From contig NZ_JAUQON010000002.1 in the NCBI RefSeq assembly GCF_030580955.1, positions 248,001 through 312,000 of the forward strand: DNA of 64,000 nt. Reading direction: 5' to 3'. Positions 7,302 through 62,290 of this stretch are shown one piece after another; positions within the stretch are counted from its first letter, which is position 1; the number at the start of each line of letters is the position of its first letter. The notes under the pieces were generated by a model, which saw only the letters and a list, made by a program, of their open reading frames with translations, was not told the DNA's origin and ran no database searches. The position numbers were made by a program, and so were the translations under genes. The stretch comes from Hymenobacter convexus (GTDB taxonomy: Bacteria > Bacteroidota > Bacteroidia > Cytophagales > Hymenobacteraceae).

Positions 7302-7411
7302 CACCCGATACGGCTGGAACGCTCTGCAGCGCCTTCAGCGTTGAACTGTTTCTATTTCCGCTCATTAAGGCGGCCCCTTATCCTGAATGCACCTTGGCGG
7401 GTGCTCCAATT

Positions 7412-9280
7412 ATGTTTCAGCAAGAAGAATACGACGTCATTGTAGTGGGCGCGGGCCACGCCGGCTGCGAAGCCGCCGCCGCCGCCGCCAACCTCGGCTC
7501 GAAAGTGCTGCTGGTGACGATGAACATGAACACCATCGCCCAGATGTCGTGCAACCCAGCCATGGGCGGCGTGGCCAAGGGCCAGATTGTGCGCGAAATT
7601 GACGCGCTGGGTGGCCAGTCGGGCCTCATCACCGACCAGACCATGATTCAGTTTCGGATGCTGAATCGCTCGAAAGGCCCCGCCATGTGGAGCCCGCGTG
7701 CCCAAAGCGACCGCATGCGCTTCGCCGAAGCCTGGCGCCTGACCCTGGAAGGCATCGCCAACGTGGACTTCTGGCAGGAAGCCGTGACCGGCATCGTGGT
7801 AGAAAACGACACGGCGGTGGGCGTGAAAACGGCCCTAGGCATCGAGTTCCGGGGCAAGTCAGTGGTGCTGACGAATGGCACGTTCCTGAATGGTCTCATC
7901 CACATCGGCGAGAAGAATTTCGGCGGTGGCCGGGCGGCCGAAAAGGGCAGCCGGGGCATCACCGAGCAGTTGGTGGAGCTGGGCTTCGAGGCCGGGCGCA
8001 TGAAAACCGGCACCCCGCCCCGCGTGGACGGCCGCAGCCTCGACTACTCGAAAATGGAAGCGCAGGGCGGCGACGAGGTGCCCAGCAAATTCTCCTACCT
8101 CGACACGCCGCGCCTCACCCAGCAACGTCCCTGCTACATCACCTACACCAACGAGCGGGTACACGACATCCTGCGCGAGGGCTTCGAGAAGTCGCCCATG
8201 TTCCAGGGCCGCATTAAGGGCCTGGGGCCGCGCTACTGCCCGAGCGTGGAGGACAAAATCAACCGCTTTGCCGACAAGGACCGCCACCAGATTTTTGTAG
8301 AACCGGAAGGTTGGAGCACCGTGGAATGCTACATCAACGGCTTCAGTAGCTCGCTGCCGGAGGATGTGCAGTACCGCGCCCTGCGCGAAATTGCGGGCTT
8401 TGAGAACGCCAAGATGTTCCGCCCCGGTTACGCCATCGAGTACGACTTCTTCCCGCCGACCCAGCTTGCGCTCACCCTCGAAACCAAGCTGATTGCGGGG
8501 CTGTATTTCGCGGGCCAGATTAACGGCACTACGGGCTACGAGGAAGCCGCCTGCCAGGGCCTGATGGCCGGTATCAACGCGCACAACAAGGTGCACGGCA
8601 AGGCGCCTTTCATTCTCAAAAGGAGTGAAGCCTATATCGGCGTGCTCATCGACGACCTGGTGAACAAAGGCACGGACGAGCCCTACCGTATGTTCACGAG
8701 TCGCGCCGAGCACCGCATTCTGCTGCGCCAGGATAACGCCGACCTGCGCCTCACGCCGCTGGGCCACGAGCTGGGCCTGGCTTCAGACGAGCGGCTGGAG
8801 CGCGTGCGGATGAAGGAAGCCCAGACCGCCGAAATCGGCACGCTGTTCCAGAAATTCGCCATTGAGCCGGCTGAAATCAACCCGCTCATGGTGGAGTTGG
8901 GCTCGGCCGAAATCCATGAGAAAACCCGCGCCGTGAACCTGCTGCGCCGCCCCAACGTGGAGCTAGTCGACCTGCGCCGCGCCCTGCCCGCGCTAAATGA
9001 AGCCTTGGCCGCTTACGACGCTGAGGCGTTGGAGCAGGCCATTATCAATATCAAGTACGAAACCTACCTGCAGAAGGAGCAGCAGCAGGCCGAGCGCATG
9101 CAGGAGCTGGAAAACTTCGTGATTCAGGGCCGGCTCGACTACCGCGCCATGCCGGCCCTCAGCCACGAGGCCCGCGAAAAGCTCCTCAAGATTCAGCCCG
9201 AAACCATTGGGCAGGCTTCGCGCATCAGCGGCATCTCGCCGGCCGATGTGTCGGTGCTCATGGTGTATCTGGGACGCTAG
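7412..9280 (+). CDS. mnmG: tRNA uridine-5-carboxymethylaminomethyl(34) synthesis enzyme MnmG
   Basis: MnmG (GidA) is the FAD-dependent partner of MnmE that installs the (carboxymethyl)aminomethyl group on wobble uridine 34 of tRNAs in the cytoplasm. The Rossmann FAD motif VVGAGHAGCEAA starts at residue 10, followed by CNPAMGGVAKGQ, the GRAAEKGSRGI region, PPRVDG, CPSVEDKI and the late FAGQINGTTGYEEAA and FTSRAEHRILLRQDNAD blocks; the C-terminal helical domain ends with ASRISGISPADVSVLMVYL. At 622 residues it is full length. ATG at 7412 (MFQQEEYDVIVVG) is preferred over an in-frame TTG six codons earlier. MnmE is not in the window. mnmG is often close to the origin in bacteria, which agrees with the nearby DnaA boxes. 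Confidence 0.97.
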   Translation: MFQQEEYDVIVVGAGHAGCEAAAAAANLGSKVLLVTMNMNTIAQMSCNPAMGGVAKGQIVREIDALGGQSGLITDQTMIQFRMLNRSKGPAMWSPRAQSDRMRFAEAWRLTLEGIANVDFWQEAVTGIVVENDTAVGVKTALGIEFRGKSVVLTNGTFLNGLIHIGEKNFGGGRAAEKGSRGITEQLVELGFEAGRMKTGTPPRVDGRSLDYSKMEAQGGDEVPSKFSYLDTPRLTQQRPCYITYTNERVHDILREGFEKSPMFQGRIKGLGPRYCPSVEDKINRFADKDRHQIFVEPEGWSTVECYINGFSSSLPEDVQYRALREIAGFENAKMFRPGYAIEYDFFPPTQLALTLETKLIAGLYFAGQINGTTGYEEAACQGLMAGINAHNKVHGKAPFILKRSEAYIGVLIDDLVNKGTDEPYRMFTSRAEHRILLRQDNADLRLTPLGHELGLASDERLERVRMKEAQTAEIGTLFQKFAIEPAEINPLMVELGSAEIHEKTRAVNLLRRPNVELVDLRRALPALNEALAAYDAEALEQAIINIKYETYLQKEQQQAERMQELENFVIQGRLDYRAMPALSHEAREKLLKIQPETIGQASRISGISPADVSVLMVYLGR

Positions 9281-12324: not shown

Positions 12325-12599
12325 CTGCGCCTTTAACTATTTTTTCGAGCCCCGGCCGGGCGGTACCTCTTTGGTTGAGGGCCGCTTGGCCGGGGCTCTG
12401 GCGTTGTACCCGTTTCGTGGCAGTTTGCTGATTGGGGCTTGTGCTGGGATTATGCCCGTTTCGAAGTGCTTTTTAAGACTAGGCGAACAGATGTAGAGAC
12501 GCGACACTTCGCGTCTCGGCGTTGCACTATGCACTGAAGGCACGATTCTGAAGACGCGAAGTGTCGCGTCTCTACATCCCTTCCGTGATATTGCGCCCA
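12325..12599. other. Non-coding stretch between the lipoprotein gene and the DnaA-box cluster
   Basis: About 275 bases without a supportable gene. A C/G-rich hairpin-like segment (GCCCCGGCCGGGC near 12350) follows the lipoprotein stop, then repeat family B copy 2 at 12493-12575. The antisense frames here are open but lack any recognisable protein character. Confidence 0.6.
12493..12575. repeat. Intergenic inverted repeat family B, copy 2
   Basis: The left arm starts GTAGAGACGCGACACTTCGC and the right arm ends GTGTCGCGTCTCTAC, identical to copy 1 at 6.4 kb over almost the whole arm, but with an unrelated spacer. It borders the DnaA-box cluster. Confidence 0.9.
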
Positions 12600-13130
12600 A
12601 GGCTTTCCCTATCGAATCCACACCTGCCGACAGGCTTTCGTGGATAGCCAAAGCTTGATTCCAGTTACTGAGGGCATTTTTAGGCAATAATCCACCGGTT
12701 TTCCACGGGCTTTTCCACAGCGTTTTGGGCTTGTGGGAAATTTCGGGGATAACCTGGGGGAAACATGGGGAGAAGCGGGGGATAAGTGGGGCACAAGTTT
12801 TTTTGGTGCTTTCAGCGCCCGCACAGGGCATTTTCCCCGTGGATAACCGTGGATAACTTCCCCAGCCCAGCAGCCCTTCCCACACCACCGTTTTTGGTGG
12901 GGATAGCAAAATGTGGAAACCCGGTGGAGATGTTGAAAATTAATCCAACCATCAGTTAATGAGTACTTTATTTTCCACAATGCCGGTGGATATTGCGTGG
13001 ATAAGGCTCGTGTTTCCCCCATGTTATCCACGCTGGGGATAACCTTCAAGGCTTATCCACTTATCAACGGACCTAATGAGTGGAAACAAAAAGAGTTTTT
13101 TAGAAAAAAATTTAATTAAAAAGTAAGATT
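12600..13130. other. Probable chromosomal replication origin (oriC): DnaA-box cluster plus A/T-rich block
   Basis: Five 9-mers differ from the DnaA box TTATCCACA only in the last base: 12838-12846 and 12848-12856 (tandem, 10 bases apart, minus sense), 12996-13004 (minus), 13024-13032 and 13053-13061 (plus). Two TTTTCCACA boxes (12711-12719, 12971-12979) and several weaker TGGATA, TGTGGAAA and GGGGATAA variants fill the space. Directly after the last boxes is an A/T-rich run, 13085-13130, a candidate unwinding element in an otherwise GC-rich genome. No gene fits the 1-kb gap. Gene neighbourhood (mnmG on one side, recF/dciA and a parS site on the other) agrees. DnaA itself is not in the window, and cumulative GC skew was not computed. 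Confidence 0.8.
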
Positions 13131-13326
13131 GGGGAAAAACGCGAGTCAAGCGTTTTTTGGCTCAGGGGCTTTTTCCATTTCAAGTGTTCGTTCCAGCTTG
13201 AGGGCTGAGCTTCTAAAAAGCCTGCTTCAAAAAAAAGCTGCCCCGCCGCCGGACTTTAAAAAAGGCGGCTCACGGTTTTTGCGCGAATCCGTATGGGTTA
13301 TGCACAACGCCCCAACACTTGTCCCC

Positions 13327-13821
13327 ATGCCGTTCGATTACACCCTCGATTTCCATACCGTCGACTTCCGTCAGCACCCCGAACTCTATCGCGTGGGCCG
13401 GGGCGAGCAGGGCGTGCTGCTGGTGCAGCCCTACAAGGGCGAAATTTTGCCGCACTGGCGCTTCAAAGACGCTGCCGCGGCTCGGGAGTCGTCGGAGACG
13501 ATTTACGGCCTGTTTGAAGCTTATTTAAAGGCCCACGATTTTGTGGGAGCCGACATGGCCCGCAAATTCATCCAGATGGGTTTCACCCGGGCCCGGCGCT
13601 ACGCCAACCACAAAGGCGGCAAGAAATACGATGGCCCCGTGCCCGACGACAAAAAAGGCCAGAGCGGCGCTCACGGCCGCGCCGAGTTGCCCCGCACCAC
13701 TCACCCCGATGTGGACAAGGTGGAAGCCGCCGCCATATTCAAGCGCAAGTGGGACGAGGCCAAGGCCAACCCGGAATACATCCGACAAAAAGAAGCTTTT
13801 GTGGAAAAGTATGGCAAGTAG
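13327..13821 (+). CDS. DUF4385 family protein
   Basis: A 164-residue soluble protein of the DUF4385 family, function unknown. The typical opening FDYTLDFHTVDFRQHPELYR, the block GRGEQGVLLVQPYKGEILPHWRF and the basic core MARKFIQMGFTRARRYANHKGGKKYD are all visible. The C-terminal third is Lys-rich (IFKRKWDEAKANPEYIRQKEAF). The frame is open upstream into the A/T-rich block, but residues before MPFDYT lack family character, so ATG 13327 is preferred; ATG 13300 is an alternative. The gene sits between the two groups of DnaA boxes. The basic Arg/Lys core suggests nucleic acid or phosphate contacts, which is inference only. Confidence 0.85.
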   Translation: MPFDYTLDFHTVDFRQHPELYRVGRGEQGVLLVQPYKGEILPHWRFKDAAAARESSETIYGLFEAYLKAHDFVGADMARKFIQMGFTRARRYANHKGGKKYDGPVPDDKKGQSGAHGRAELPRTTHPDVDKVEAAAIFKRKWDEAKANPEYIRQKEAFVEKYGK

Positions 13822-13907
13822 CCGATTAGTTGTTCGTTGCTAGTTGGCCATTGTCAGAACTTCAAATACCCTGACAACGGCCAACTAGCAACGAACAACT
13901 AATCGGC
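13821..13907. repeat. Large intergenic hairpin, 37-base arms
   Basis: Arms at 13821-13857 (GCCGATTAGTTGTTCGTTGC onward) and 13871-13907 are inverse with a single mismatch, around a 13-base A/C-rich loop. The left arm begins at the stop codon of the DUF4385 gene. It has no T-run, so it is not a standard terminator; it may be another palindromic repeat class. Confidence 0.9.
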
Positions 13908-13911
13908 TGCC

Positions 13912-13919
13912 TACCTTTG
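13912..13919 (+). promoter_or_regulatory. -7 promoter box
   Basis: TACCTTTG fits TAnnTTTG exactly, 24 bases before the ATG at 13944. No clear -33 TTG at the usual distance; the upstream DNA is the 37-base hairpin arm. Confidence 0.5.
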
Positions 13920-13943: not shown

Positions 13944-14429
13944 ATGAGCACCACGCAACCCTCCAGCATCGAGGAAAACGAAATTATACTGGGCACCGGC
14001 ATGGGCCCCCTACGCTTCGGCGCCACCATGGACGAAGTGCGCACCCTGGTGGGCGAGCCCGAGGAAATCGAGGAGTCGGACGACGACGACGATTTCGAGC
14101 ACCAGGCCTGGAACTACCACGAGGAAGACTACCTGCTGTCGCTCTACTTCGACCGCGAAGACGACTTCCGCCTGAGCTGCATCGAAACCGACAACCCCAG
14201 CATGCGCCTCTTCGGCGAAGCCATTTTCGGCCAGAGCCTGGAGCAGGTGAAGGCCCTGATGGCTCGCCACAACCAGCCCACCCCCGAAGTGGAAACCATG
14301 GACGAAGGCGCCGTGCGCCTGTCCTACGAAAAGTCGATGATTGACCTGTACTTTGAAGAAGGCGAGCTGCAGTTTGTCAATTTCGGCGTCTTCATCAACG
14401 ACGATATGGAGGTACAGTGGCCCAAGTAG
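13944..14429 (+). CDS. Acidic hypothetical protein
   Basis: A 161-residue, strongly acidic cytoplasmic protein of unknown function. A run EEIEESDDDDDFE lies near residue 40, and the rest is an alternating alpha/beta-like sequence with two similar halves: GMGPLRFGATMDEVRTLVGEP and IFGQSLEQVKALMARHNQP, each a strand-helix unit followed by acidic beta strands ending in SLYFDRED and DLYFEEGEL. This internal symmetry suggests a duplicated fold of the kind seen in small immunity-like or binding proteins. No catalytic motif is apparent. The start follows a good -7 box by 24 bases. Perfect DnaA boxes begin nine bases after its stop. Confidence 0.75.
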   Translation: MSTTQPSSIEENEIILGTGMGPLRFGATMDEVRTLVGEPEEIEESDDDDDFEHQAWNYHEEDYLLSLYFDREDDFRLSCIETDNPSMRLFGEAIFGQSLEQVKALMARHNQPTPEVETMDEGAVRLSYEKSMIDLYFEEGELQFVNFGVFINDDMEVQWPK

Positions 14430-14437
14430 TAGCGTAC

Positions 14438-14472
14438 TTATCCACATTTATCCGGTTTTTTACTGTGGATAA
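14438..14472. promoter_or_regulatory. Inverted pair of perfect DnaA boxes
   Basis: TTATCCACA (14438-14446) on the plus strand and TGTGGATAA (14464-14472), its inverse, match the DnaA box 9/9. They lie 1.38 kb from the nearest box of the main cluster, separated by two small genes. They could form the second half of a bipartite origin, or a titration site. Confidence 0.75.
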
Positions 14473-14555
14473 GTGGACAAGTCACTAAAAACACTAGGGT
14501 TATCCCCCAAACTTGGCCTTTTTGTAGCAAGCCCCGGCTTTGCTAAAATGCCGAG

Positions 14556-40540: not shown

Positions 40541-40569
40541 CAAAAATGTTCCACGTGAAACATTTTTGT
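40540..40569. promoter_or_regulatory. parS: Consensus parS site within a 30-base palindrome
   Basis: TGTTCCACGTGAAACA (40547-40562) matches the ParB-binding parS consensus TGTTNCACGTGAAACA at every position. It is the centre of a longer palindrome with ACAAAAATGTT (40540-40550) and AACATTTTTGT (40559-40569) arms. parA and parB are not in the window. The A/T arms could also act as a hairpin terminator for the HTH gene, which ends at its left edge. Confidence 0.8.
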
Positions 40570-61956: not shown

Positions 61957-62290
61957 AAAGCAAGATAGCGAAATAGTTGAGCCGCGCTATTACGACAAAA
62001 TTCCAAGCATGGTTGCAAGGACAAAGAATATTATTGGGTGAATTTGTTGTGTTTAATAAAGAATATTTGAATTTTTTTCATAAAAATTGATGAGCTTATG
62101 AAAAGTTTGGGCTAGCTTTACCCAACGACCTATTGCAATGGGAATATGAATTTCCCGGTCCGACCTCTTTTCTACTTCTTTTCCCCCGGCCCCACACGGC
62201 TTCGCCTATCGCCTAAGAAATCTACTAGCCCGGCTCTTTTTGCGCCTCTGCCAAAACCCGGATTTGTGCCCCAACCCCTAACGACGGACA
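61957..62290. other. A/T-rich intergenic region before the NlpC/P60 gene
   Basis: About 335 bases. The first half (61960-62130) is clearly A/T-rich with runs of T and A, perhaps regulatory, and includes a -7-like TAGCTTTA near 62113. The rest is a leader of about 170 bases without a clear structure. No gene is supported. Confidence 0.5.

Follow-up and report, generated by a model that had tools for sequence, protein, structure and literature searches.

The window, by which we mean the whole 64,000-nucleotide stretch of Hymenobacter convexus DNA that was analyzed, covers positions 248001-312000 of a 777-kb contig (C11) in an assembly of 5.98 Mb and 18 contigs. Within it, a cluster of DnaA boxes is found together with mnmG (gidA), a classical origin-proximal gene, and recF, both of which are common neighbors of origins. 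Two genes, one encoding a DUF4385 protein and the other a small conserved protein with no match in Pfam or NCBIfam, separate this cluster from a second set of boxes. The features, in window coordinates, are as follows.

7394-9280, plus strand: mnmG (gidA), TIGR00136
12642-13140: core of the proposed oriC (box array and unwinding region), conserved across Hymenobacter, with sharp borders against unconserved flanks
12699: further box TTTTCCACG
12711-12719, plus strand: DnaA box TTTTCCACA
12744-12785, minus strand: weaker boxes TTATCCCCG (12744) and TTATCCCCC (12777)
12838-12856, minus strand: tandem boxes, two copies of TTATCCACG 10 bases apart (12838, 12848)
12971-12979, plus strand: DnaA box TTTTCCACA
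12996-13042: boxes TTATCCACG at 12996 (minus), TTATCCACG at 13024 (plus) and TTATCCCCA at 13034 (minus)
13053-13069, plus strand: left gate, overlapping tandem boxes TTATCCACT/TTATCAACG with a step of 8
13069-13130: probable unwinding element, motif CCTAATGA followed by an A/T-rich run at 13085-13129
13130-13138, minus strand: right gate box TTTTCCCCA, facing the left gate
13327-13821, plus strand: DUF4385 gene (PF14328, 5.5e-67), between the two box clusters
13944-14429, plus strand: small conserved gene, between the two box clusters
14438-14446, plus strand: perfect box TTATCCACA of the second module
14464-14480, minus strand: perfect box TTATCCACA (14464-14472) and overlapping third box TTGTCCACT (14472-14480)
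14500: weak box TTATCCCC
40547-40562: parS TGTTCCACGTGAAACA, the sole perfect copy in the genome
41132-42289, minus strand: recF, TIGR00611

Two other repeats are present. Immediately to the left of the core, at 12485-12583, lies a MITE-like inverted repeat with 32-nt arms (GTAGAGACGCGACACTTCGCGTCTC), half-sites of which occur 78 times in the genome at up to two mismatches, mostly as inverted pairs. A large inverted repeat at 13813-13915, with 45-nt arms that are 91% complementary, overlaps the end of the DUF4385 gene.

The interval 12600-13130 contains eight sites that differ from TTATCCACA at no more than one position, compared to a mean of 0.13 and a maximum of 2 in 500 dinucleotide shuffles, and 21 that differ at no more than two, compared to a dinucleotide-shuffled mean of 1.73 and maximum of 6; among all 400-base bins of the window, the cluster has the highest density. 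Sites of the form TTATCCAC are located at 12838, 12848 and 12996 on the minus strand and at 13024 and 13053 on the plus strand, and in some congeners the positions of the weaker boxes 12744 and 12777 are also occupied by TTATCCAC. The sequence-only reading of this DNA had located the boxes correctly but reported five 8/9 TTATCC sites, whereas there are six once TTATCCCCA at 13034 (minus) is added. Its tandem boxes exactly 10 bases apart at 12838 and 12848 are borne out, both on the minus strand. It had also described the gap as free of genes, and indeed no conserved gene is present; the open reading frames listed there are unsupported because conservation tracks the boxes and their spacing. 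Within the core, an inverted pair (12744-12765 and 13011-13032) couples a DnaA box to GGGGGAAACA/TGTTTCCCCC, and may be a candidate site for a second initiation or regulatory protein.

An A/T-rich stretch directly adjoins the boxes, as predicted for an unwinding element. From 13084, 39 of 45 bases are A or T, a content matched within the window only near 62041, confirming the 45-base A/T-rich run that had been reported beside the boxes. A conserved CCTAAYGA motif follows just after the left gate, and facing boxes are present on both sides of the region, with a gate-to-gate distance of 61-64 bases in 68/68 sequences. Most congeners have TTTTCCACA or TTATCCACA as the right gate.

The array is a feature of the genus. 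Upstream of the DUF4385 gene it retains the same order and near-identical spacing in 29/30 congeners, and with longer flanks the array and A/T block are found upstream of this gene at 67 of 69 Hymenobacter and Solirubrum loci, conservation being limited to about 12642-13140. A sequence model of the core identified one place per genome, at E <= 1e-23, in 9/9 genomes tested, with faint reverse-strand echoes that overlap the very same place. Given that the cluster lies directly upstream of the DUF4385 gene in most species, it could conceivably control that gene, through transcriptional regulation by DnaA or some other factor. However, the gene has no boxes upstream at the 11 loci outside Hymenobacter and Solirubrum (Acinetobacter, Alkanindiges, Pontibacter and Neolewinella). 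Furthermore, the array persists in H. metallicola despite an insertion of approximately 5 kb of other genes between it and the DUF4385 gene; in H. montanus the expected place of the array is taken by unrelated genes up to the contig end (L174, 1-4300), and the core is located on another contig (E 3.5e-28 with a sequence model of 12990-13120). Because the array is kept after separation from the gene, and because other genera carry the gene without boxes, we consider it extremely unlikely that the cluster is a DUF4385 control region.

By inspection, the H. metallicola insertion (L212, 2100-7400) contains cyclase-like and M50-peptidase-like open reading frames, and the insertions of several kilobases between the core and the DUF4385 gene in H. 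metallicola and H. montanus are independent. An order-wide search with the core model gave weak matches (E 1e-8 to 1e-2) in other families, for example G203:C48:5411, G165:C18:511480 and G138:C6:36256; these are possibly the origins of those families, sharing the tandem-box/CCTAA module. The recognition motif of DnaA itself differs by clade (GGRDHTTVMH, GGRDHSTVIH or GGRDHATVIH in the DnaA proteins of L055-L072), as do the letters of the boxes (L004-L033), with many TTATCCCC in the T clade and strict TTATCCAC in the A clade, consistent with a possible co-change of motif and boxes between clades.

The cluster is above chance and also unique in the chromosome. Throughout the 5.98-Mb genome only two pairs of TTATCCAC occur within 30 bases of one another, both of them in the cluster, and a wider pattern (TTATCCMC, 25 bases) adds a few pairs at other places, each isolated rather than part of a cluster. 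Comparable box densities at other places had been named as grounds for rejecting an origin here. We found no rival cluster in 400 kb of other DNA from the same genome or in 2.4 Mb sampled from three congeners, where the only 450-base windows with at least four strong sites belong to the orthologous cluster (in congener G070).

A cumulative GC skew minimum had been expected at the cluster. In raw form this does not hold, as skew tracks gene orientation in both window and contig, without a minimum there; it does hold after correction for gene orientation in three complete congeners (G070, G077 and G012). When fourfold-site skew was adjusted for gene strand and the terminus fixed opposite, the best origin fell at an offset of 0.000 from the cluster in each of the three (pooled z 4.3), a weak signal with a bootstrap interval of -0.025 to +0.275 of the chromosome for the pooled origin. 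Strand composition changes sign at the cluster, weakly, in the corrected congener data. With a floating terminus, the best origin in G070 moves 0.6-0.7 Mb away (z 4.5, compared to 3.6 at the cluster), and the same fit places the terminus at 3.50-3.54 Mb, the point opposite the cluster being 3.53 Mb. On the H. convexus contig the leading and lagging strands do not differ in fourfold-site skew. In G070, AT fourfold skew lends the cluster no support, and the best split of gene strand bias falls elsewhere. Of 27 ribosomal RNA operons, 23 are co-directional with forks departing from the cluster, a score that random origins reach in 0.14% of trials; however, orientation discriminates poorly, because taking dnaA as the origin gives 20/27. 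A search for dif with a Proteobacteria-type consensus found none, and therefore the terminus cannot be placed by dif.

The strongest independent marker of origin position is parS. In 11/11 genomes there is exactly one perfect parS (TGTTNCACGTGNAACA), and in every case the cluster is 21-29 kb away, with parS on the side of the DUF4385 gene. These observations bear on whether the cluster is instead a DnaA-titrating or DnaA-reactivating locus of the datA or DARS type, with the true origin elsewhere. Loci of that type likewise consist of clustered DnaA boxes, and many of the boxes here are weak variants. Against this, the A/T block framed by boxes is present, skew and parS point to the cluster, and neither the whole-genome scan for paired boxes nor the sampled DNA contains a rival; a box cluster standing apart from a distinct origin is thus not what we observe. 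We judge this explanation highly unlikely.

The dnaA gene resides on a different contig from the cluster in H. convexus and is approximately 1-2.1 Mb distant in complete congeners, and no adjacency to dnaA/dnaN was found at the cluster. Proximity of dnaA/dnaN to oriC is common but not defining, and is not needed for a locus to be classed as one. The DnaA protein has the normal box-recognition motif GGRDH(T/S/A)TV. The proposal that this stretch is an origin is upheld by the genus-wide array and A/T block, the unique parS, the corrected skew, the uniqueness of the cluster in the genome and the proximity of mnmG and recF. Although all of the evidence is computational, it is almost certainly the chromosomal replication origin, oriC, of Hymenobacter.

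Located 1.4 kb from the core, the second module has the layout TTATCCACA-N17-TGTGGATAA, with the third box overlapping the right box by one base. At up to two mismatches it is present at all 67 of the loci that reach that far, with a gap of invariably 17 bases, compared to none in a control stretch, and neither the H. convexus genome nor three congeners have another such site. Its position, 8 bases past a stop codon and between convergent genes, and the ability of its strand to fold into an 11-pair stem (z -1.94), are features that a transcription terminator unrelated to replication would also have. On the other hand, the loop would be 17 nt with no T run after it, and the site is the only one of its kind in four genomes. 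Furthermore, 67/68 sequences have TTATCCACA as the left half, and of the right-half changes among the 68 sequences, 26 disrupt pairing and 0 are compensated; conservation also extends to the third box, which lies outside the stem. A terminator is therefore an improbable account of this inverted repeat (14438-14480), and because the changes are never compensatory, the module resembles a site for a protein more than a hairpin. Given its link to oriC, its match to the DnaA consensus and its constancy, the ligand is likely DnaA. Two conserved DnaA box clusters with genes in between suggest a bipartite origin. In H. metallicola the module is approximately 7 kb from the core, and therefore any action it has must tolerate distance.

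In several congeners, one or two distant loci have a different facing pair, TTATCCACA-N7-TGTGGATAA (G012:C1:2833312 and 3588499, G020:C1:1464584, G053:C2:4996332, G063:C1:2971463, G079:C1:2932780 and G067:C14:3568); these could be DnaA-regulated or titration sites.

Taken as oriC, the locus may work as follows. DnaA, made from the distant dnaA gene, would bind the array at 12.70-13.06 kb and assemble there into an oligomer terminating at the overlapping tandem boxes 13053-13069. The A/T-rich stretch 13085-13129 would then melt between the gates, aided by the facing box 13130-13138, helicase would load at the melted stretch, and two forks would depart. DnaA probably also binds the second module (14438-14480), which could modulate initiation via looping or DnaA titration. 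The intervening DUF4385 and small genes are not known to act in replication. We tentatively propose, as a possibility that falls somewhat short of an even chance, a bipartite origin without dnaA, in which a gated unwinding element of constant length is combined with a DnaA-binding three-box module, with its invariant 17-base gap, that controls initiation across the intervening genes.

Outside a few models, origins of Bacteroidota have, to our knowledge, seldom been mapped. The present analysis provides a precise oriC map for a genus with more than 60 species. Such a map can serve the design of oriC plasmids and the estimation of growth rates from read coverage, and raw GC skew alone would have missed this origin. 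The kind of element is ordinary; what is unusual is its distance from dnaA and the second, strictly conserved set of DnaA-type boxes 1.4 kb away, which may be part of the origin. The new details are the frame of facing boxes, 61-64 bases, around the putative unwinding region and the second module with its constant N17. Constant gate spacing and an invariant second module offer handles for studying origin opening by DnaA at a distance from its own gene, and the second module is the part most deserving of experiment.

Literature searches found no published mapping of a Hymenobacter origin. DoriC and Ori-Finder predictions use skew, boxes and indicator genes as criteria (PMC6323995, PMC10225481), the same as were used for this locus. 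Hymenobacter is not named in the text of either paper, as distinct from the database entries, and complete Hymenobacter genomes may already have a DoriC entry.

As in bacterial oriC in general, the locus combines an array of strong and weak boxes with an adjoining A/T-rich element, is single copy, and has mnmG and parS in its region; the oriC of E. coli lies next to gidA/mnmG. It differs in that the Hymenobacter clade has many TTATCCCC boxes and that its unwinding element has facing boxes on both sides at a fixed distance. The BUS unwinding module consists of a DnaA box, a spacer and DnaA-trios (PMC8287927). Similar to BUS, tandem boxes lie right at the unwinding region with a short G/C-rich spacer. 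The trio pattern is not consistent, with at least three trios (NAN, within 16 bases of the box) extending from the left gate in 4/68 sequences and from the right gate in 27/68, compared to approximately 30% in same-composition shuffles. The origins of H. pylori and B. subtilis are bipartite, with two DnaA box clusters (PMC5043019), and here too two clusters are separated by coding DNA, in this case 1.4 kb. The second module differs from those origins in comprising three boxes and a constant N17 gap. By analogy it may be a second sub-origin, in this case with DUF4385 and a small gene in between rather than dnaA.
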